Source: Candidatus Nanohalarchaeota archaeon
GTDB taxonomy: Archaea; EX4484-52; B79-G9
Assembly: GCA_017610545.1 (NCBI GenBank)
Contig: JAFCBV010000005.1
Location: 1-14,791, forward strand
Reading direction: 5' to 3'
DNA: 14,791 nucleotides
The notes below the pieces were generated by a model. It ran no database searches and had not been told where the DNA came from. It was given only the letters and a program-made list of their open reading frames with translations. Shown here in pieces: positions 7,111 to 14,610 of this stretch (the stretch's first letter is position 1; each line of letters begins with the position of its first letter). A program made the position numbers and the translations under genes.

Positions 7111-7331
7111 CGAGCCCGGAGGGAATTTCGTTGGGGAAAATGATTCATGTAGTCTTTATTTAGTAGCCCGCATACACGAAATTTTGTTTATCCCGAACTA
7201 CGGAGTGCTGTTTGCGGCATACTTATGCAAATTCACCAAATTTCGAACCCCCGACCTACTGGTTTCTCTCAAAAACCCACTGCGGGTTTTGTCCGAAGCC
7301 AGTCGCTCTATCCGGACTGAGCCACGGGCCC
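7111..7331 (-). tRNA. tRNA-Arg(UCG) with two introns (37/38 and T-loop 59/60)
   Basis: Exons on the minus strand are 7331-7293, 7263-7242 and 7124-7111, giving a 75-nt mature tRNA without CCA. Acceptor GGGCCCG pairs with CGGGCTC (one G-U); D stem GCTC/GAGC; anticodon stem ACTGG/CCAGT; loop CTTCGGA with anticodon TCG at 7296-7294 and T33 present; T stem GGGGG/CCCTC (one G-U); T-loop TTCGAA+T. Intron 1 (7292-7264, 29 nt) sits at the canonical 37/38 site and folds as a hairpin (CAAAACCC with GGGTTTT). Intron 2 (7241-7125, 117 nt) interrupts the T-loop between 59 and 60. Its BHB is regular: central helix TTCG (bases 54-57) with CGAA near the intron 3' end, 3' bulge AT^T, 5' bulge AA^AT, inner helix TTGG/CCAA. 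The discriminator base is G. Confidence 0.9.
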
Positions 7332-7360
7332 ACCATACAGTATATAACAAGAATTATCCT

Positions 7361-7366
7361 TTTAAA
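7361..7366 (-). promoter_or_regulatory. Probable TATA box of tRNA-Arg
   Basis: The minus strand reads GATTTAAAAGG about 30 bases before the tRNA 5' end at 7331, a normal spacing for a short pre-tRNA leader. A second AT-rich motif (TTATATACT, 7341-7349) is too close to the tRNA to be its TATA box. Confidence 0.5.
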
Positions 7367-7399
7367 TCAAATGGTGGGTTGTCTTCCGACAGAAATCTT

Positions 7400-8587
7400 T
7401 CACTCATACCTAAGCGCCTCGGCAGGCTCAAGGCTCGCAGCCCTTAATGCAGGCAAAACGCCTGAAACAATCCCTACAATAAATGCAAATGATATGCTAA
7501 AGAGTATCAATTCAGTATCAAACACTATCTTTAACAATGAATATCCCGCGTAATTTGCAGCCACGCCCATAAGATATGAGAGAGTAAATCCTGAAAAAGC
7601 ACCTATCAGACCGCCGACCAACCCGATAAAACCGGCTTCTATGAGAAACATTATAACAATGTCCTGCTTCCTTGCCCCTATTGATTTTATAATGCCTATT
7701 TCTCTCGTGCGCTCAAGGACGGATGTATACATTGCATTCATTATCCCAATACCGCCCACAAGAAGCGATATGGCCGCGATTCCTGCAAGAACAAGGCGCA
7801 CTACGCCAAGAATTGCTCCAAGCTGATCTAAAATCTGCTCAGGCGTAAAAACATCGAAATTTTCGTTACCGCGCGACCTTTTCAACGCACGTATTATGTC
7901 TTCAGCCACATCTTCGGATACGGCGCCCTCATCAAGGCGCACGAGAATCACGTTCACCTCATCCGGCTTGTCAAAGAGATCCCTTGCAGAATCAATTGGC
8001 ATATAAATATTGTTGTCAAATTCACTGGTTCCTGTCTCCCCAAAAACACCTACGACCTCGAAAGCCTCGCCTTTTATCCTTAGTTTTGTGCGGACGGAAA
8101 GTTCCTTGTCAAAAGCCTCTTTTGACACTTTAAATCCTATATTCACTCCTTTCTTGTCGCTCCCTGTAAAAGGTCTGCCGCTGTAAAAAGAAACATCAAA
8201 GTCACTGAACCGCTCTTCTGCATTATCTGTAGGATATGCAATAATCGGCACAAATGCTTTTCCTCCGGAATATTCTACCTGCTCATTCAAAAAAAGCATG
8301 GGGGTAATATACTTTATCCCATGTATCCCATCAATAACTTCTGCATCTTTTGTTGTAAGGCCTGTGACACCCACAGGAGGCCCGCGAAGGGAACCTGGTA
8401 CAACTCGTATGCTGTCAGCGCCAAGCTTTCCGAACTGCTCTTCCACAGCATTTTGCAGGCCTGTGCCAAGAGAAATAAGTGCGACAATTGCGGCAATGCC
8501 TATTACAATCCCTATTATTGTGAGATATGCGCGCTTCTTTCTGTGCCTCATGTTCCTATATGCCATGTCAAAATAGTCGTATATCAT
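7400..8587 (-). CDS. MacB/FtsX-family ABC permease (second permease)
   Basis: A 395-residue protein with the MacB layout: TM1 at about residues 21-45 (KKRAYLTIIGIVIGIAAIVA), an extracytoplasmic MacB periplasmic-core region at about 45-270, then three TM helices of the FtsX domain (about 275-300, 325-352, 362-385). The signature between TM2 and TM3 is clear (MNAMYTSVLERTREIGIIKS, then GARKQDIVIMFLIEAG). It pairs with the upstream permease, which has the same motifs, and with the LolD/MacB-type ATPase of the same operon; the permeases probably form a heterodimer. Such systems act by mechanotransmission on extracytoplasmic substrates or enzymes rather than classical import. The ATG at 8587 overlaps the TGA of a short broken duplicate upstream. 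The substrate is unknown. Confidence 0.92.
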   Translation of the reverse strand: MIYDYFDMAYRNMRHRKKRAYLTIIGIVIGIAAIVALISLGTGLQNAVEEQFGKLGADSIRVVPGSLRGPPVGVTGLTTKDAEVIDGIHGIKYITPMLFLNEQVEYSGGKAFVPIIAYPTDNAEERFSDFDVSFYSGRPFTGSDKKGVNIGFKVSKEAFDKELSVRTKLRIKGEAFEVVGVFGETGTSEFDNNIYMPIDSARDLFDKPDEVNVILVRLDEGAVSEDVAEDIIRALKRSRGNENFDVFTPEQILDQLGAILGVVRLVLAGIAAISLLVGGIGIMNAMYTSVLERTREIGIIKSIGARKQDIVIMFLIEAGFIGLVGGLIGAFSGFTLSYLMGVAANYAGYSLLKIVFDTELILFSISFAFIVGIVSGVLPALRAASLEPAEALRYE

Positions 8588-8604
8588 GTATTTCCGCCTT
8601 TAAT

Positions 8605-8714
8605 TATACAAATCCAATTACAGTAAGATGTGAGCGCTTCTTTCTGTGCCTCATGTTCCTGTACGCCCCCGTAGTCAAAATAATCGTATATCATGTATTC
8701 TGCCTTCAATTACG
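8605..8714 (-). pseudogene. Decayed duplicate of the 5' end of the second permease gene
   Basis: The sequence just upstream of the permease start repeats the leader and first 25-30 codons of that gene at an offset of 104-107 bases. It includes a 27-base identical core (8634-8660 against 8530-8556) and the same start region (an ATG at 8694 matching the one at 8587). Read from 8694 it begins MIYDYFD like the real gene, then goes out of frame because of a small insertion. In the shifted frame YRNMRHRKKR and LTVIG are still legible before a stop. It is best explained as a tandem duplication, or the stump of a third permease copy, that has since diverged. Confidence 0.8.
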
Positions 8715-9876
8715 CGTATTGCCGAAGTGCATCTGTAGGCTGCATTTTTGAGGCTTCTTTTGCAGGAAAAGCCCCGCTGATGGCTCCAGTCAGTGCTGCA
8801 AAACCTATTCCAAACAGCACAAGATTTGGGGTTATGACGATGCTCAATATATTGTAGCCTGCGGCCTTTGCAGCTACGTCAACGCCGATTGCAATCATGG
8901 AGCCCAGTAATGTGCCTACCATCCCTCCTATTGCACCGACAAGGCCGGCCTCAAGTATGAAAAAGAACATTATGTCCTTGTTTCTTGCCCCAACGGCTTT
9001 CATGAGGCCGATCTCCTTTGTCCTCTCAAGCACAGAAGTATACATGGAATTCATAATTCCTATTCCGCCGACAACAAGCGAGATTGCTGCGATTCCAACC
9101 AAAACAATCTGTACAACTCCAAGCAGTGATGATATCTGTTCTATTAGCTGAACCGAAGTCATTACATCAAAATTCTCGTCACCACGCTCTCTTTCAAGCG
9201 CGCGCTTGACGCGCGCCACAAGCATGTCCGGATCCTGACCTGCTTTTGGCCGAAGCAGTATCATATTGAGCTCATTTGTCTTGTTGAATACATCGCGCAT
9301 AGTGCTTAACGGAATGTATGCAGACTCGTCATCAGGCGGGTTTCCTATTGGCTCCATAATGCCAATAACCACAAAGGATACACCATTTATTTCAATGCGG
9401 TTTTGCACAGAAATTTTCTTTGAGAACATGTTGTCTGCAATCCGCGAACCAATCACTATTGAATTAGAGTCACCGCTTTTCAGCATGCGGCCTGCCTGAA
9501 CATCCAGCCCGCCCTGCGAAAGATATTCTTCAATGTCTTCGGGCTCCATGCCCAGAATCTGTATATTTCTTGTCTCCCGCCGATACTCTACAGCCCCGAA
9601 ACTCATAAGCATGGGCATTACTTCTTCAAAAAGCCCAAGCCGCTCCATTGCAGATGCATCATCTTTTGTCAGGGTTGCGGCCTGTCCCATATCTGTAATT
9701 GTAACGCTTTTTGGCATCACATATATATCGTCTTTTGAAAACTGAGCCATTTGCTCGTTTATTGAGTTTTCAAGACCTCCTGAAATTGCAATAAGAGAAA
9801 CAATTGCCATTATGCCAATCATGATTCCGAGCAGTGTGAGGCCGAAGCGAAGCTTTCGGTGGCTTATGTTTCTCAT
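8710..9876 (-). CDS. MacB/FtsX-family ABC permease (first permease)
   Basis: 388 residues from the ATG at 9876, with TM1 at about 10-33 (LRFGLTLLGIMIGIMAIVSL), an extracytoplasmic core at about 35-265, and three C-terminal TM helices with the FtsX signature MNSMYTSVLERTKEIGLMKA and GARNKDIMFFFILEAG. It is a clear paralogue of the permease at 7400-8587. The frame stays open upstream of 9876 for 13 codons, and the residues there (ILIDAFEHAMRN) align with the paralogue's N-terminus (MIYDYFDMAYRN). The true start may therefore be an AUU at 9903, preceded by AGGGGG; no ATG, GTG or TTG is available there. It follows the CARDB-like gene by 82 bases, or 55 if the AUU is used. Confidence 0.9.
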   Translation of the reverse strand: MRNISHRKLRFGLTLLGIMIGIMAIVSLIAISGGLENSINEQMAQFSKDDIYVMPKSVTITDMGQAATLTKDDASAMERLGLFEEVMPMLMSFGAVEYRRETRNIQILGMEPEDIEEYLSQGGLDVQAGRMLKSGDSNSIVIGSRIADNMFSKKISVQNRIEINGVSFVVIGIMEPIGNPPDDESAYIPLSTMRDVFNKTNELNMILLRPKAGQDPDMLVARVKRALERERGDENFDVMTSVQLIEQISSLLGVVQIVLVGIAAISLVVGGIGIMNSMYTSVLERTKEIGLMKAVGARNKDIMFFFILEAGLVGAIGGMVGTLLGSMIAIGVDVAAKAAGYNILSIVITPNLVLFGIGFAALTGAISGAFPAKEASKMQPTDALRQYA

Positions 9877-9958
9877 TGCGTGTTCAAATGCATCAATAAG
9901 AATATGTAAAACCCCCTAAAGCATGCGCCCTGATGGCTGTTTGCAAAAGGCTCATCTC

Positions 9959-11182
9959 CTACGCCTTTCTTTTCTTTCTTCGGCGATACAAATAGTATCC
10001 TACTACAATGACAACGACCGCGGCAATTATTGTGTTGCTGCTGCCCCCATTTGATCCCAAACCAAATTCAGCCAACTCAGACTCTGTATAAAGCGGCACA
10101 GAAAGTGTGCGTGTCTCCTGAACTTCGTTGTTGAATGCATCACGATACTCCAGCATTATTTTGAAATTCTGCTGACCTGAGGCGGACGGGTGAGATGTGT
10201 ATATTGTGAACTCGGCAGTTTCAAAGTCATCGGGGTCAAGATTGCCAAGATATTCTTTTGCTCTGCCTATGATGGAATAACTATTGTCCGGCAGAATATG
10301 TACTGTAAGAAATTTGACATTTGAAGGTCCTGTGTTTGATATGCTGAAGATCAGGTCTTGCGCCTTATTCGAAATTATCGGGTCTTTTGTCTCTATGTTC
10401 AAATCAAGTGACGGAGGTGTGTCAACAACAATGCCTATTATGCCTGACTTTGTGTAATTGTTCCCTGCTGTGTCTGAATAGGTTATTGTAATCGGGATCT
10501 GATACACGCCTGACTCTGTTGAGGGGTCTGAAATTATGTCATAAAAAAATGTGGATGTGCCTCCTGCTGCGATTGCAGAAATTCTCTTTTCAGATGCCGA
10601 ATCAATCGGAGTAAATGCAGTCCCTAAAAAATCAAGTTTCACTACAACATTCTGGAAAAGTGTTTCCGCGAGATTCTCAAGGCCGATAAAAATCTTTGCA
10701 TTACTTCCTGCTGAAATAATTTTTGGCTCGGTGCTTGTTGAGGTTATGGAAAGAAGCGCGTCTTTTGCCCGAACCTCGATTTCAAGAGTCTTTTCTATCT
10801 TGACTGTGCCTGTGCCATAAAGTAGAGTGAGTTCTGCAGTCCCTGTTGGTGCATTCGCATCGACAAGAAACCGGAATTTTTTTACGATTATACCTCCTGC
10901 CGGAATTGTCCCAACCACTACACTGCTGCTTTCCCCGGAATCAATAGAAAACGGAAAGTTCTGCGAAAACTCGATGAAAAAATCATCTGCATCGCGCAAC
11001 CCTGTATTCTGGATTTGCAACCAGATATCGACATACCTTGCAGGCTCTGCAGGGTATGGTTCATACTTTGCAACAGACACTTCAACTGCAGAACCTGTGA
11101 ATGTTTCTGAATATGCAGTCCCTGAAAAAACCAGTACCATGTACATTGCAGCCAAAACCAAAAAACTTTTTTTGATGCTCAT
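9959..11182 (-). CDS. Secreted CARDB/COG1361-like protein of the ABC operon
   Basis: 407 residues with a signal peptide (SFLVLAAMYMVLVFSGTAYS), three or so beta-sandwich repeats of the CARDB/COG1361 kind (about 28-135, 140-250, 255-370, with phrases such as YVDIWLQIQNTGLRDADDFF and ISNTGPSNVKFLTVHI), and a C-terminal TM helix at about 381-399 followed by a basic tail (YRRRKKRKA). Its start overlaps the ATPase stop by four bases (ATGA), so synthesis is probably coupled. In archaeal MacB-type operons a protein of this shape often sits between ATPase and permeases and is presumed to be the surface adaptor in place of the bacterial MacA; that role is inferred here. Confidence 0.85.
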   Translation of the reverse strand: MSIKKSFLVLAAMYMVLVFSGTAYSETFTGSAVEVSVAKYEPYPAEPARYVDIWLQIQNTGLRDADDFFIEFSQNFPFSIDSGESSSVVVGTIPAGGIIVKKFRFLVDANAPTGTAELTLLYGTGTVKIEKTLEIEVRAKDALLSITSTSTEPKIISAGSNAKIFIGLENLAETLFQNVVVKLDFLGTAFTPIDSASEKRISAIAAGGTSTFFYDIISDPSTESGVYQIPITITYSDTAGNNYTKSGIIGIVVDTPPSLDLNIETKDPIISNKAQDLIFSISNTGPSNVKFLTVHILPDNSYSIIGRAKEYLGNLDPDDFETAEFTIYTSHPSASGQQNFKIMLEYRDAFNNEVQETRTLSVPLYTESELAEFGLGSNGGSSNTIIAAVVVIVVGYYLYRRRKKRKA

Positions 11183-11886
11183 TTTTTTCCGCCTCCATTA
11201 ATCACTTCTTTTAGCACTTGCCCGTCCTTGATGTGAATTGTCCGCTCTGCAAAGCGCGCAACCGCTGAATCGTGAGTAACAACAATAATTGTCTTGCCTT
11301 TTTTGTGCAAGTTCTGCAATATATCTATAACTTCAGCCCCTGTTTTTGAATCAAGATTTCCTGTCGGTTCATCAGCAAGCATAACTTCGGGATCGTTTGC
11401 AAGTGCGCGGGCAATTGCTACGCGCTGCTGCTCGCCCCCGGACAACTCACCCGGAAGGTGTTCCGCCCTCTCAGCCAAACCGACATTGCTGAGCAGCTTT
11501 TTTGCGCGAGTCCTGCGCTCGTCCTTTGGAACTCCCTGAAACACCATCGGAAGAGCAACATTCTCCCATGCATTAAGTGTTGACAAAAGATTGAATTTCT
11601 GGAAAACAAAGCCGATTTTTTTGCCACGAATCTGCGCCAACTTTGATTCAGACATATGCGCAATGTTTTGCCCGTCAAGATATATGCTGCCTTTTGTTGG
11701 CAGGTCGAGGCAGCCAACAAGGTTCATCATAGTGCTTTTCCCGGAACCTGAAGGCCCCATTATTGAGACAAACTCACCGGAATGTATTTTTAGGTTTACG
11801 CCTCTTAGCGCAGGAACCTCTACTGTGCCCATCTGGTATGTTTTTCCGGCATCATCCAACTCTATTATGGGTTTTGTCTTTTGCAT
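11179..11886 (-). CDS. ABC transporter ATPase, MacB/LolD family
   Basis: 235 residues with all ABC motifs: Walker [10 protein letters not shown] (44-52), Q-loop Gln96 (FVFQKFNLL), signature [15 protein letters not shown] (148-162), Walker B VMLADEP (168-174), D-loop NLDSKTG and H-loop His205 (VVTHD). The [12 protein letters not shown] and ADEPTGNLD phrasing is typical of the LolD/MacB/FtsE branch. It powers the two permeases downstream. It begins nine bases after the regulator gene stop and overlaps the CARDB-like gene by four, so it sits centrally in one operon. Confidence 0.96.
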
Positions 11887-11895
11887 AATATCACG

Positions 11896-12414
11896 TTATT
11901 TAAGACAGCCATTACGTTTTTGCCCGCTGTCACCGGCATTCTCTGTGGCATCAAGCATCCGGATGAGAGAACCAATTATTTTCTCAAAAACAAGAACCTG
12001 CTTGCCGTATCCTTTGATAATTTGCAGTTCCTCTTTTGATGCCTTTGATTTTTCAGTTTTGTACTTTTCAATTATATTCGGAAGTTCTCTTTTTGTTTTG
12101 GTAATCACTAATTCATGCTTTCGCTGCATAAGCTGCATTGTAATCTTAATCAGGTCTTTTTCCATGTAAAAATAAACTTTTCTTGACCCCGGTTTTTTCA
12201 GGCGCTTTACAAGCCCTGTGCGCACAACCAACTTCATCGCAGTGCTCACCGCAGAAAGGCTGTACCCGGTCATTTTTGCAAGGTTTTCAAGAGCGACCTC
12301 TTCAGGCTCTATAAACAGGGTTCCGACAATCTTCGAGGTCAACTCGTCAAAGCCATCGACCTGACAGTTCTTTGAAATAAGGTCTATGAATTCATCTCTC
12401 GGCGATGTTGTCAT
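11896..12414 (-). CDS. GbsR/MarR-like HTH transcription regulator (COG1510 type) of the ABC operon
   Basis: 172 residues from the ATG at 12414. An ATG two codons earlier (12420) is also in frame, but the only ribosome site, TTAGGT, touches that codon and is six bases from the one at 12414. An N-terminal winged helix (about 25-90: ALENLAKMTGYSLSAVSTAM, VRTGLVKRLKKPGSRKVYFY) is followed by a long helical segment (about 95-165) suited to dimerisation. This layout matches archaeal GbsR/MarR-like regulators. It is the first gene of the ABC operon, and an inverted repeat that could be its operator lies directly upstream. The effector is unknown. Confidence 0.82.
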   Translation of the reverse strand: MTTSPRDEFIDLISKNCQVDGFDELTSKIVGTLFIEPEEVALENLAKMTGYSLSAVSTAMKLVVRTGLVKRLKKPGSRKVYFYMEKDLIKITMQLMQRKHELVITKTKRELPNIIEKYKTEKSKASKEELQIIKGYGKQVLVFEKIIGSLIRMLDATENAGDSGQKRNGCLK

Positions 12415-12440
12415 AATCATACCTAATTTGTAATTTTCTG

Positions 12441-12464
12441 AACTTTCAGTAATTTATGAAAGTT
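12441..12464. promoter_or_regulatory. Palindromic operator candidate between the regulator and primase genes
   Basis: AACTTTCA and TGAAAGTT form a perfect 8-bp inverted repeat with an 8-bp spacer, 24 bp in all. It lies 27 bases upstream of the regulator's first ATG. The AT-rich spacer (minus strand CATAAATTAC) is at a plausible TATA distance for that gene, so a bound dimer would block the regulator's own promoter. This is inferred from position and symmetry only. Confidence 0.5.
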
Positions 12465-12478
12465 ATTGTTCTGGAATG

Positions 12479-12486
12479 TATTTATA
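12479..12486 (+). promoter_or_regulatory. Probable TATA box of the primase gene
   Basis: TATTTATAC lies about 70 bases before the ATG at 12555, predicting a transcript start near 12507. A start codon at 12456 would lie upstream of this box, which argues for starting the protein at 12555 or 12570. Confidence 0.45.
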
Positions 12487-12554
12487 CTTTAGGCACATCA
12501 ACGCCTGTTTTCTGCTGTTTTAAGATTGTTAAAACTACGCTACGAATACTTGTT

Positions 12555-14009
12555 ATGAGCCCGGAACCTATGTCTTCGCAAAAAGTGATGCGATATTACC
12601 TTCGCCCTGAAATACTTGAAAAGCTTTTTTCATTATCTGCCGGGCGCGAAGTAGTGCCTGTTTATGCCGCAAGAGGATTTGGCTCAAGGCCGTCAATTGT
12701 GCAGTTCCCGGGAGACCTTGAGCACATGATAAGGCGCGGTGCCACAAGCTTTCACTGCTCAATTGAGCACTGGAAAAATCCTCTTGTCCTCGCCAACCAA
12801 CTCAAAAAACAGGAGATGAATGCGCTTCGCTCTGGCTGGGACCTTGTGTTTGATATTGATTCAAAAAAAGACCTTTATGTGGGACAAATCACCGCAGATC
12901 TTGTTGTCCGCGCGCTCAATGAGCACGGCATAAGTACAGTATCTGTCAAGTTTTCCGGCAGGCGCGGCTTTCATATTGGGGTGCGCATGGAATGTATGCC
13001 AAAGAATATCAACAATATAACTATTGCAGCGTCATATCCTGATGTTCTGCAGAAAGTTGCCCATTACATAAAGCAATACATGCGGAAGCCGCTGCTTGAA
13101 GAAATTGTGCGCTACGATAAAAACCTTGAAACCGAGCTTAAAGGAGATCCGTATGAGGCTGTAGAACTTGAAGAGAACTGGTCAAACAGGCACTTATTCA
13201 GGATGCCTTATTCTTTCAATGAAAAGACCTGGCTTGTCAGCGTTCCTGTTGACCCTGAAAAAATACGTGACTTCAAAGCAGAGTTTGCGCAGCCTGAAAG
13301 GGTTTCCGGAAAACTTGGTTTTCTTGAAACCTTTGAAGAAGATTCTGCAGAAACACTGGTTGCAAATGCTCTTGAATACAGAGATGAAAAACCAGCTGAA
13401 AAAAAGAAAGGACATGAAAAAGTTGCAGCGCACCTTCTTGACGGGCACGGTGTTGTTCAGATAGTGAAGAAAAAAGCAACAAACTCGGAAATGCATCGGT
13501 CTTATTCACGCCTTACCGCAGAAGAGCTTGAAAACGAGATGGCCTCTTTCAAAAAGACTGATTTTTCGTCTACGCGCATCGGTAAAAGAGTGCCTGAAGA
13601 GTTTTTCCCGCCGTGTATAAAAAAGGGTATGGCGGGTCTTGAGGATGGCAGAAAACGATTCATGTTCATATTGATAAACTTCCTTAAAAGCTCCGGATGG
13701 GTGATGAATGAAATAGATGAGAAAATTACAGAGTTTAATAAAAACAATCCTGAACCTGTTGACGAATCGTATGTTCGCGGGCAAGTATCTTATGCATCTA
13801 AAAGGGCAGAGAGCTTTCCGCCGCCTAATTGCGCAGCTGCGGGGTATTATAATGATTTGAAGATATGCGAACCGGATAATATTTGCGCAAAGATAAAGAA
13901 TCCACTGGGATATGCGTTTTTTATGGGCATGAAGCCAAAAAAGAAGAAAAAGGCTTCGCGAAAACCTATAAAACGTTCAGCGCAAAAGAAGAAACCTTCG
14001 GGGCCTTAG
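12555..14009 (+). CDS. priS: DNA primase, PriS catalytic domain fused to a PriL-type Fe-S domain
   Basis: 484 residues from the ATG at 12555. The frame is open back to 12456, but those 33 residues look non-coding and the TATA box lies inside them; a further ATG at 12570 is possible. The PriS part makes RNA/DNA primers: metal-binding DxD in WDLVFDID (D100, D102), SGRRGFHI (134-141, His140) and the nucleotide-binding RMPYSFNEKTWL (about 216-227). The third catalytic acid is not obvious by eye. After about residue 345 a second domain resembles the PriL C-terminal domain: FPPCIKKGMAGLEDGRKRF, FLKSSGW and SFPPPNC...C...C. Four cysteines at 354, 426, 438 and 444 would hold a 4Fe-4S cluster. Length exceeds ordinary PriS by roughly 130 residues. 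The end is a Lys-rich tail. The stop codon lies inside tRNA-Pro. Confidence 0.88.
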   Translation: MSPEPMSSQKVMRYYLRPEILEKLFSLSAGREVVPVYAARGFGSRPSIVQFPGDLEHMIRRGATSFHCSIEHWKNPLVLANQLKKQEMNALRSGWDLVFDIDSKKDLYVGQITADLVVRALNEHGISTVSVKFSGRRGFHIGVRMECMPKNINNITIAASYPDVLQKVAHYIKQYMRKPLLEEIVRYDKNLETELKGDPYEAVELEENWSNRHLFRMPYSFNEKTWLVSVPVDPEKIRDFKAEFAQPERVSGKLGFLETFEEDSAETLVANALEYRDEKPAEKKKGHEKVAAHLLDGHGVVQIVKKKATNSEMHRSYSRLTAEELENEMASFKKTDFSSTRIGKRVPEEFFPPCIKKGMAGLEDGRKRFMFILINFLKSSGWVMNEIDEKITEFNKNNPEPVDESYVRGQVSYASKRAESFPPPNCAAAGYYNDLKICEPDNICAKIKNPLGYAFFMGMKPKKKKKASRKPIKRSAQKKKPSGP

Positions 14010-14114
14010 GGTAGCTTGGTCATCCCTCCAGCTCGGGGAGCTGGGAACCTGAGTTCAAAATTTTGCTGGCTTGAAAAGCATATTGAGCCACAAATGAAAA
14101 TCTCAGAGGCCCCA
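14000..14114 (+). tRNA. tRNA-Pro(GGG) with a T-loop intron at 59/60
   Basis: Exons are 14000-14059 and 14101-14114; the intron is 14060-14100 (41 nt). Acceptor GGGGCCT/AGGCCCC is perfectly paired; D stem GGG/CCC with loop GG; anticodon stem CCAGC/GCTGG; loop TCGGGGA, anticodon GGG; T stem CTGAG/CTCAG; T-loop TTCAAA+T. BHB: exon TTCA (54-57) with intron TGAA (14095-14098), 3' bulge AA^T, 5' bulge AA^AT, inner helices TTTG/CAAA and TGGCT/AGCCA. There is a C at position 33 instead of the near-universal U. The CCA is not encoded. The first ten bases overlap the primase gene, whose TAG stop is tRNA bases 8-10. Confidence 0.92.
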
Positions 14115-14116
14115 TC

Positions 14117-14124
14117 TTATAAAA
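14117..14124 (+). promoter_or_regulatory. TATA-like box between tRNA-Pro and tRNA-Ala
   Basis: TTATAAAA begins three bases after tRNA-Pro. With normal spacing, transcription would start near 14147, about 160 bases before tRNA-Ala, so the product would carry the hairpins at 14164-14291 as leader or as a separate RNA. Confidence 0.45.
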
Positions 14125-14163
14125 ACAGATTGAATCAAGAGTTGGCGAGTGAAAGAAAGGGTT

Positions 14164-14291
14164 AGCCCCAAAAACAAAGAAATATGTGCTGTTTTTGAGG
14201 TCCTCGAAAATTCAACAAGTTTCATTGACTCGAATTTTCGGGCTTTTTAATGGCTCGTCTCCAAAACATTGTGAGCTTGTTGTTTTGGGAG
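14164..14291 (+). ncRNA. Possible structured RNA of three hairpins between the two tRNA genes
   Basis: Three long-loop hairpins in series: CAAAAAC (14169-14175) with GTTTTTG (14191-14197), clamped by CC/GG; CGAAAATTC (14205-14213) with GAATTTTCG (14232-14240), clamped by CC/GG; and CAAAAC (14262-14267) with GTTTTG (14282-14287), clamped by CTC/GAG. Each clamp is set off by one bulged base. AGCCC (14164-14168) can pair with GGGCT (14240-14244) in an alternative fold that encloses the first two. No ORF of note is present. A downstream T-run (14244-14248) follows the second hairpin. Whether it is a leader, an RNA gene or only DNA structure is open. Confidence 0.4.
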
Positions 14292-14306
14292 TCGCACATT
14301 AAAAAC

Positions 14307-14415
14307 GGGCCGGTAGATCAGCTGGTAGATCGCTGCGTTCGCAACGCAGAGGCCTCGGGTTCGAATGTGGTTGAGTTGAATAGTGACTTTTCCAACGAGA
14401 TTCCCGACCGGTCCA
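14307..14415 (+). tRNA. tRNA-Ala(CGC) with a T-loop intron at 59/60
   Basis: Exons are 14307-14365 and 14402-14415; the intron is 14366-14401 (36 nt). Acceptor GGGCCGG/CCGGTCC contains the G3-U70 pair that identifies tRNA-Ala; D stem GATC/GATC; anticodon stem CTGCG/CGCAG; loop TTCGCAA, anticodon CGC; T stem TCGGG/CCCGA; T-loop TTCGAA+T; discriminator A at 14415. BHB: TTCG (54-57) with CGAG (14396-14399, one G-U), 3' bulge AT^T, 5' bulge AA^TG, inner helix TGG/CCA. No CCA is encoded. A run of five T at 14416-14420 directly after the gene is a plausible archaeal terminator. Confidence 0.92.
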
Positions 14416-14420
14416 TTTTT
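14416..14420 (+). terminator. T-run terminator of tRNA-Ala
   Basis: Five consecutive T directly follow the tRNA discriminator base; archaeal RNA polymerase commonly terminates at such tracts. Confidence 0.45.
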
Positions 14421-14421
14421 G

Positions 14422-14485
14422 GTGAGTGAGTCTGAAATTGGTATGCTCGCCTCAATTTCGAGGCGAACCACCAAAACAATCTCAC
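14422..14485. other. Nested three-part stem-loop downstream of tRNA-Ala
   Basis: Three stacked helices can form: GTGAG/CTCAC (14422-14426 with 14481-14485), TTGGT/ACCAA (14438-14442 with 14470-14474) and TCGCCTC/GAGGCGA (14447-14453 with 14460-14466) around a 6-nt loop. It superficially resembles a tRNA arm set, but the anticodon-like loop has six bases and there is no T arm or acceptor. It may be a small RNA or a tRNA relic. Confidence 0.35.
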
Positions 14486-14497
14486 TATCGTTCGAAT

Positions 14498-14572
14498 GTC
14501 CTAAAAAATCAAAGATTTTTTGGACCCTAAAACAGCTTTGCTGTTTTATGGTCTTCAAACTTCGTTTGAAGA
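14498..14572. repeat. Three overlapping clamped hairpins of the same type as the 2424-2777 array
   Basis: 14498-14525: clamp GTCC/GGAC, bulged T, stem AAAAAATC, loop AAA. 14523-14553: clamp GACC/GGTC, a one-base bulge on each side, stem TAAAACAGC, loop TTT. 14552-14572: stem TCTTCAAAC, loop TTC. Neighbouring units share clamp bases (GAC at 14523-14525 and TC at 14552-14553), so only one of each adjacent pair can be fully closed. Confidence 0.8.
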
Positions 14573-14610
14573 AGCTTGAAAAGCCTAACTAAAAGTATTT
14601 GTGGATTTTC

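Follow-up and report, generated by a model that had tools for sequence, protein, structure and literature searches.

Introns at position 59/60 of tRNA genes in an archaeal order, probably portable through the near-constant TTCR of the T loop

The stretch of DNA analyzed here (the window, 14,791 nucleotides) is contig C88 of G000, an archaeal genome bin of 953 kb that is 82.65% complete; the other G numbers used below denote comparison genomes. The window holds three tRNA genes, each interrupted by an intron in the T loop, between positions 59 and 60. tRNA-Arg(TCG) lies on the minus strand (7331-7111) and comprises positions 1-58 (7243..7331, delimited by a covariance model match and the sequence itself, with the anticodon read by eye), a 117-nt 59/60 intron (7125..7241) that starts with ATTTGG and ends with CCAA-CGAA-AT, and positions 60-73 (7111..7124), assigned from five of five T stem pairs and seven of seven acceptor pairs. 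A second intron, which the original prediction lacked, sits at 37/38 in the first part of this gene (29 nt, 7264..7292, minus strand), with its exact ends deduced from the anticodon stem-loop. On the plus strand, tRNA-Pro (14000-14114) is made of positions 1-59 (14000..14059), a 41-nt intron (14060..14100) ending with CAAA-TGAA-AA, and positions 60-73 (14101..14114). Its anticodon, GGG in the loop TCGGGGA, was assigned by eye, the anticodon script having picked a different loop. By eye, position 33 of tRNA-Pro(GGG), almost universally U in tRNAs, appears to be C in three genomes of the order (the window gene, G002:C27, and G012:C4:63497). The third gene, tRNA-Ala(CGC) (14307-14415, plus strand), consists of positions 1-59 (14307..14365), a 36-nt intron (14366..14401) ending with CCAA-CGAG-AT, and positions 60-73 (14402..14415). 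The coordinates and lengths originally predicted for these three introns are therefore right.

The 3' halves were placed by a downstream scan for sequence complementary to the T and acceptor stems. Removal of the intron restores the cloverleaf in all three genes, with 5/5 T stem and 7/7 acceptor pairs and scores of 22-24; as a control for this placement, a score of at least 20 was reached in 17 of 11,600 shuffled downstream sequences. In each gene, the T-loop bases TTCR pair 4/4 and in register with the intron (CGAA in Arg, TGAA in Pro, CGAG in Ala), followed by two intron bases and T60, again as predicted. The minimum free energy (MFE) fold of the whole tRNA-Pro gene forms the central helix and a 3-nt 3' bulge, with a 4-nt 5' bulge (z -3.0). 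A short tRNA-Ala fragment deprived of the 3' strand of the T stem does not form the central helix and folds no better than shuffled sequences (z 0.77).

We then consider the splice-site anatomy of 53 introns from seven genomes, a set selected on exon fit alone, with pairing unused; the pairing and covariation statistics treat related sequences as independent. A58 and T60 are present in all 53, as are two intron bases directly before T60. The central helix, between nucleotides 54-57 and the four bases preceding the last two of the intron, is complete (4/4) in 44 introns, including all eight of G000, and reaches 3/4 in the other nine, while a register shifted by 1 to 3 in either direction yields 4/4 pairing in at most two of the 53. 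The inner helix shows 4/4 pairs in 29 introns, 3/4 in 17, and 2/4 in 7, compared to 2.3%, 14.6%, and 33.5% of shuffled sequences, respectively; at least three inner pairs are found in 37 of the 44 introns with a complete central helix. Nucleotide 57 covaries with its intron partner (G57 faces C in 12 and T in 5 introns, A57 faces C in 2 and T in 28; Fisher p = 8e-6, computed without the six rows in which the partner is a purine), and in G039 the T loop TCCA stands opposite TGGA in the intron. These introns thus show the bulge-helix-bulge (BHB) form, with a 4-bp central helix, 3-nt bulges, and a cut two bases in, the 3-nt size of the 5' bulge being assumed. Together, the 53 introns and the covariation at nucleotide 57 bear out the idea, put forward from the window alone, that an end built on TTCR fits most tRNAs.

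From these features, we read the introns as BHB introns that EndA, the archaeal splicing endonuclease, would cut and RtcB would ligate. The outer helix of the precursor would be the 5-bp T stem (49-53/61-65), T-loop bases 54-57 (TTCR) would pair with YGAR near the 3' end of the intron to give the 4-bp central helix, flanked by two 3-nt bulges (A58-N59|i1 and N-N|T60), and the intron would pair with itself to give the inner helix. At the canonical position 37/38, a 5-bp stem carries a loop of seven bases that is cut after the sixth, and position 59/60, between nucleotides 6 and 7 of the 7-nt T loop on its own 5-bp stem, would share this geometry. The two sites would differ in their central helix, which at 37/38 uses bases that vary between tRNAs and at 59/60 the near-universal TTCR, so that at 59/60 the intron end need not be tRNA-specific. 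Because TTCR hardly varies, unlike anticodon loops, an intron ending with YGAR-NN would fit most tRNAs. We think that the introns of this order, which we take, partly from the names of homologues, to belong to DPANN, pile up at 59/60 and get copied owing to this fit. T-loop geometry and TTCR would suffice for such portability, and therefore no new enzyme property would be needed; as the majority of these BHBs have the canonical form, a broad-specificity endonuclease is not strictly required. Overall, we consider it quite probable that these are BHB introns at 59/60 which are portable through TTCR and have been copied between tRNA genes.

Interrupted genes were searched for with R1, a covariance model of tRNA positions 1-58 built from 14 sequences, among them the window Pro and Ala genes and one further interrupted gene. 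On contig C88, R1 gives exactly three matches at E <= 10, which are the Arg, Pro, and Ala genes. ARAGORN and Rfam at its gathering score find no tRNA in the window, and across G000 Rfam picks up only two of the eight interrupted genes, as partial 57-nt matches; the expectation that default searches would overlook such genes is thus supported for the two programs tried. In total, 29 tRNA genes were found in G000 (23 by Rfam and 6 more by R1), of which eight carry a 59/60 intron: Arg-TCG, Pro-GGG, Ala-CGC, Ala-GGC, Gly-TCC, Pro-CGG, Asp-GTC, and Lys-CTT. Anticodons were called by script, and by eye where another intron or an odd loop interferes. No copy of these eight anticodons free of a T-loop intron was found in the 82.65%-complete assembly; intact copies of the three window tRNAs, which would have marked the interrupted ones as relics according to the original prediction, are therefore among those not found. 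A search of G000 for Ser-type patterns returned only the already-known Ser gene. The claim that every tRNA gene is interrupted holds for the window and does not extend to the genome; the three-of-three is partly luck, yet the site is used by over a quarter of the G000 tRNA genes that were found.

Across the order, 69 introns at 59/60 were found in eight genomes, and 9 further ones in two more distant archaea outside it. G001, of the same genus as G000, has 2 interrupted genes among 10 fetched (13 R1 matches); within the same family, G003 has 2/15 (19 R1 matches) and G002 6/18 (20 R1 matches). In other families of the order, the intron is carried by 23 of the 38 tRNA genes found in G012 (96% complete), by seven of the eight genes fetched in G013 (26 R1 matches), and by nine of the twelve fetched in G016 (20 R1 matches), where three more were reached through the repeated element f7, described below; nine in G021 were all reached in this way. 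Fetching in G012, G013, and G016 began mainly with matches missed by Rfam; because the remainder was fetched for G012 alone, only the G012 figure is a proportion among the three. Outside the order, G039 shows seven introns of 14 to 33 nt in eight fetched genes (30 R1 matches) and G037 two in five analyzed genes (23 R1 matches). T-loop introns in G040 were rejected, as its two R1 matches without a Rfam match are intronless. In several cases the interrupted gene is the sole isoacceptor and was found in no uninterrupted copy, namely Asp-GTC in G000, and Asp, His, and Cys in G012, where the two Glu and four Pro genes detected are all interrupted as well. Trp was not counted here, since the anticodon of G012:C3:58040 is ambiguous and possibly Trp. 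Also left out of the counts were G002:C92 and G016:C54:5891, which have no acceptable 3' half, G015:C5:22610 and G037:C1, which lie at contig ends, and four bacterial-looking tRNAs (two Thr, Gly, and Tyr) found inside 330 bases of G012 contig C11 (L199), which we presume to be bacterial contamination of the bin.

Other features of these tRNA genes were seen along the way. A second non-canonical intron site occurs in or beside the D arm (G012:C3:79312, C5:23410, C1:64272, and C2:52503; G000:C108:3851 and G000:C30:2823), and by eye the D-arm introns of G012 Arg-TCT and Arg-CCT resemble each other. G039 (L210-L217), a more distant archaeon, combines its very short 59/60 introns with a 387-aa frame that has two endonuclease-domain matches, and may have filled the site independently.

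Copies were sought by comparing intron pairs, trimmed of their BHB ends, with dinucleotide-shuffled scores. Scores above the top shuffled value are reached by 8 of the 171 G012 pairs, 10 of the 36 G016 pairs, and 1 of the 21 G013 pairs, whereas none of 15 pairs in G002 exceeds even the 99% shuffled level. Introns similar beyond chance in different tRNAs, the mark of the Thermoproteales introns, are thus present in G012, in G016, and as one pair in G013, and were not seen in G002 or in G000. The most striking pair, the introns of G012 Ala-CGC and Val-GAC, is 98% identical over 45 nt, whereas the 5' exons are 74% identical. The earlier proposal of a specialized or spreading intron class is therefore supported in the relatives, by these introns and by the element of G016 and G021, and only suggested within G000.

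This element, f7, is a structured repeat of about 100 nt present in many T loops of G016 and G021. The G016 Asp intron, used as query against five genomes, returned many more copies in these two, none in G012, and just weak short matches in G000 and G013. Twelve f7-bearing tRNA loci read beyond the 53-intron set all fit as 59/60 introns; the script scored two copies as inverted and nine as direct relative to the tRNA, and the one it left unscored (L189) is direct by eye. Both inverted copies are in tRNA-Ser(GCT), one in G016 and the other in G021 (L177, L194), and since the orientation is inverted in both species this insertion probably predates their split. Three further copies stand outside tRNAs (L190 in G016:C35, L191 in G016:C23, and L193 in G021:C48), where a reading frame ends and the motif CGGTTTCT starts 2 nt past its stop codon; one of the three frames is transcription factor B-like, as read from its translation. 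Each of these stand-alone copies apparently contains a nested insert, by eye. The consensus of nine tRNA copies folds into a long hairpin and a second hairpin, with changes on both sides in 12 of the 25 predicted pairs. A known RNA family was rejected, as Rfam at E <= 0.1 gave only tRNA for seven loci. Because of the inverted and non-tRNA copies, the f7 sequences favor movement by DNA-level insertion rather than by reverse splicing of the excised RNA.

Regarding the enzymes, RtcB was matched in nine of the eleven genomes of the family, including G000, although one of the nine matches is a short piece at a contig end. The PF01974 endonuclease domain was found in 33 of the 41 genomes searched, including G001 (L060), and never more than once per genome within the order, and the three EndA proteins scanned all combine PF02778 with PF01974. 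The original prediction had called for the endonuclease subunit type, which can be given for the relatives: one gene with an N- and a C-terminal domain, the predicted architecture of a homotetrameric (alpha4) EndA. A structural model (predicted local distance difference test (pLDDT) 88.8) of P0001, a protein with 98% identity to G001 EndA, has Methanocaldococcus jannaschii EndA (1a79), likewise a two-domain single gene, as best match, with the same fold. Compared to two control genomes, the EndA of the order has about five extra residues at the position of the ARMAN-2 type specific loop (ASL) or Crenarchaea-specific loop (CSL) and seven more between the catalytic Tyr and His. The fold is also that of the ARMAN-2 epsilon2 enzyme (4fz2/9w2k), with a longer loop at the ASL position, as far as passages of PMC12397907 describe it; this loop is of similar length in G001 EndA (FGKW), with Trp-Ile opposite Y160-K161 of ARMAN-2. 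The seven-residue insertion was rejected as the ASL: in the alignment, the ASL falls on the N-terminal FGKW loop, and the insertion on the I243-E248 region of ARMAN-2 and on a loop of N. equitans 3iey.

Several results weigh against portable introns copied between tRNA genes and spliced by this enzyme, and are given here together. PF01974 was not found in the 82.65%-complete assembly of G000 itself. In the EndA alignment (the best 120 of 244 homologues, reduced to 109 by leaving out 11 longer than 260 aa), Tyr and His of the catalytic triad are kept in 109/109, whereas the residue aligned with K156 of M. jannaschii, presumably the third member of the triad in view of the Y115 and H125 numbering, is Ala, Ser, or Thr throughout, so that the complete Tyr-His-Lys triad of alpha4 enzymes is lacking. 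G015 has the same kind of EndA, yet none of its 25 assessable tRNAs is interrupted (25 of its 26 R1 matches lie inside full-length Rfam tRNAs and the last is at a contig end; this count leaves out about 12 further Rfam tRNAs without an R1 match); therefore the enzyme and the site alone do not explain the spread, and EndA may permit it without driving it. In G000, none of the 28 intron pairs exceeds the 99% shuffled level, and only three share at least eight of their first nine bases (0.01 expected), which is only suggestive of spread as those bases also make the inner helix. The MFE fold of the whole tRNA-Ala gene has just 2 bp of the central helix (z -2.2) and reproduces the BHB incompletely, and in 7 of the 44 introns with a complete central helix the inner helix has only 2/4 pairs in the expected register. 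Lastly, the twelve f7 loci were accepted only with at least three of four central pairs, which makes their pairing a criterion of selection rather than an independent test.

The insertion between Tyr and His has a conserved NPYKxGxKxxKEHTKY-like sequence, and its NPYK lysine is shared by 60 of the 63 closest homologues. Our guess is that this lysine could compensate for the missing catalytic one; it is a guess because, in passages of PMC12397907, alanine at conserved catalytic residues kills the activity of two other EndA enzymes. A literature search on the missing lysine returned nothing relevant. Combining the enzyme with f7, a bolder proposal, which we find doubtful though worth stating, is that mobile BHB elements could use the T loop as a universal landing site: an f7-like repeat with self-complementary ends would insert in either orientation at T loops and after stop codons, would be harmless in tRNAs as TTCR always completes the splice site, and would be excised by an EndA with a relocated catalytic lysine.

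How the introns were copied, and whether they were copied at all, can be weighed against four alternatives. Gene conversion between tRNA genes, with T-arm exon sequence carried along, is unlikely in our view, even if the T stem reads CCGGG or CCCGG in many interrupted G012 genes and, in Thr-GGT, CCGGG in G012 against GCGAG or GCGTG in those copies from relatives that have no T-loop intron. Against it, five G016 introns have a mean identity of 81%, while the T stem and 3' acceptor of their genes are 68% and the 5' exons 75% identical (a modest contrast, identities being computed over aligned columns), their T stems differ (GTGCG, GGGAG, GCGCG, and CCGGG), and the inverted and post-stop-codon copies of f7 are not explicable by conversion between tRNA genes. 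We give the same low weight to reverse splicing of an excised intron into other tRNAs, followed by reverse transcription and recombination. EndA and RtcB chemistry could run backwards, and insertion is base-precise at the splice site; the inverted f7 in the Ser-GCT introns of both species and the stand-alone copies outside tRNAs speak against this route, which could still account for family f3 of G012.

Old, vertically inherited introns whose ends are alike only because a BHB at 59/60 requires YGAR, without any spread, appear somewhat less plausible again. The shuffle-level similarity within G000 and G002 would fit such a history, as would the Arg-TCG 59/60 intron with alike ends common to G000 and G001. 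However, near-identical introns in different G012 tRNAs and the element shared by G016 and G021 are at odds with it, and the same tRNA is interrupted in some species only, Ala-GGC having the intron in G000 and G003 and not in G002. In addition, a stretch of 23 nt in the 37/38 intron of Lys-CTT is identical in G000 and G012, whereas the 59/60 intron of this gene occurs solely in G000. The conservation of these 23 bases across families (L207 in G012, L073/L076 in G000) suggests, from the sequence, that this 37/38 intron has a function of its own. Finally, that the interrupted genes are dead relics, with working intronless tRNAs encoded in the missing part of an 82.65%-complete assembly, is hardly credible given stems intact in 12/12 pairs, splice-site pairing kept with covariation, and no uninterrupted copy of the same anticodons found either in G000 or, for Asp, His, Cys, Glu, and Pro, in the 96%-complete G012.

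The surroundings of the window genes show some further features. Just upstream of tRNA-Pro, a single frame of 465 aa (12456-14009) contains both the small and the large primase subunit domains (PF01896 and PF04104), and its stop codon falls within the first 10 bases of the tRNA gene. Its relatives are named Nanohalarchaeota and Aenigmatarchaeota, the closest being L029 with 82% identity over 248 residues, up to a contig end. Repeat-like stretches lie beside the tRNA genes (14115-14310 and 14416-14610), and similar AAGCTTGAAAAGCC...GGATTTTCATGA stretches are seen by eye downstream of several G000 tRNAs. A plasmid search with the tRNA-Arg gene gave no match.

The kind of intron is known; the lineage, the mobile unit, and the enzyme variant are new. 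In passages of PMC4090602 and PMC4033280, position 59/60 is listed among archaeal tRNA intron positions and a large-scale intron transposition is described in Thermoproteales (Fujishima 2010, as cited there), which share with the present introns the non-canonical BHB sites, including 59/60, and the occurrence of similar introns in different tRNAs. Here, by contrast, the lineage is DPANN and 23 of the 38 G012 genes found (a tally of 59/60 introns only) share one BHB design on TTCR; moreover, the Thermoproteales passages of these papers mention neither a dispersed non-tRNA element nor inverted copies such as those of f7. Permuted tRNAs of Thermofilum pendens and Cyanidioschyzon merolae also join their fragments at 59/60 according to passages of PMC3218864, but the halves found here are in the normal order with the intron internal. 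As part of PMC8450103 states, the non-canonical intron models of tRNAscan-SE 2.0 were trained on Crenarchaeota/Euryarchaeota and Thaumarchaeota. A literature search at the level of titles and abstract openings, mostly without subscription journals, found no report of T-loop introns in this order.

Should the EndA without the lysine prove active, the indispensability of the catalytic triad would be called into question. ARAGORN and Rfam undercount the tRNAs of DPANN genomes of this kind. Anticodon-loop geometry with a near-constant sequence would offer a simple structural reason for a non-canonical site becoming common. According to the passage on this point in the review PMC4090602, the mechanism of tRNA intron gain is still unknown; it may now be tested in a second lineage, where recent, inverted, and non-tRNA copies are available for comparison.

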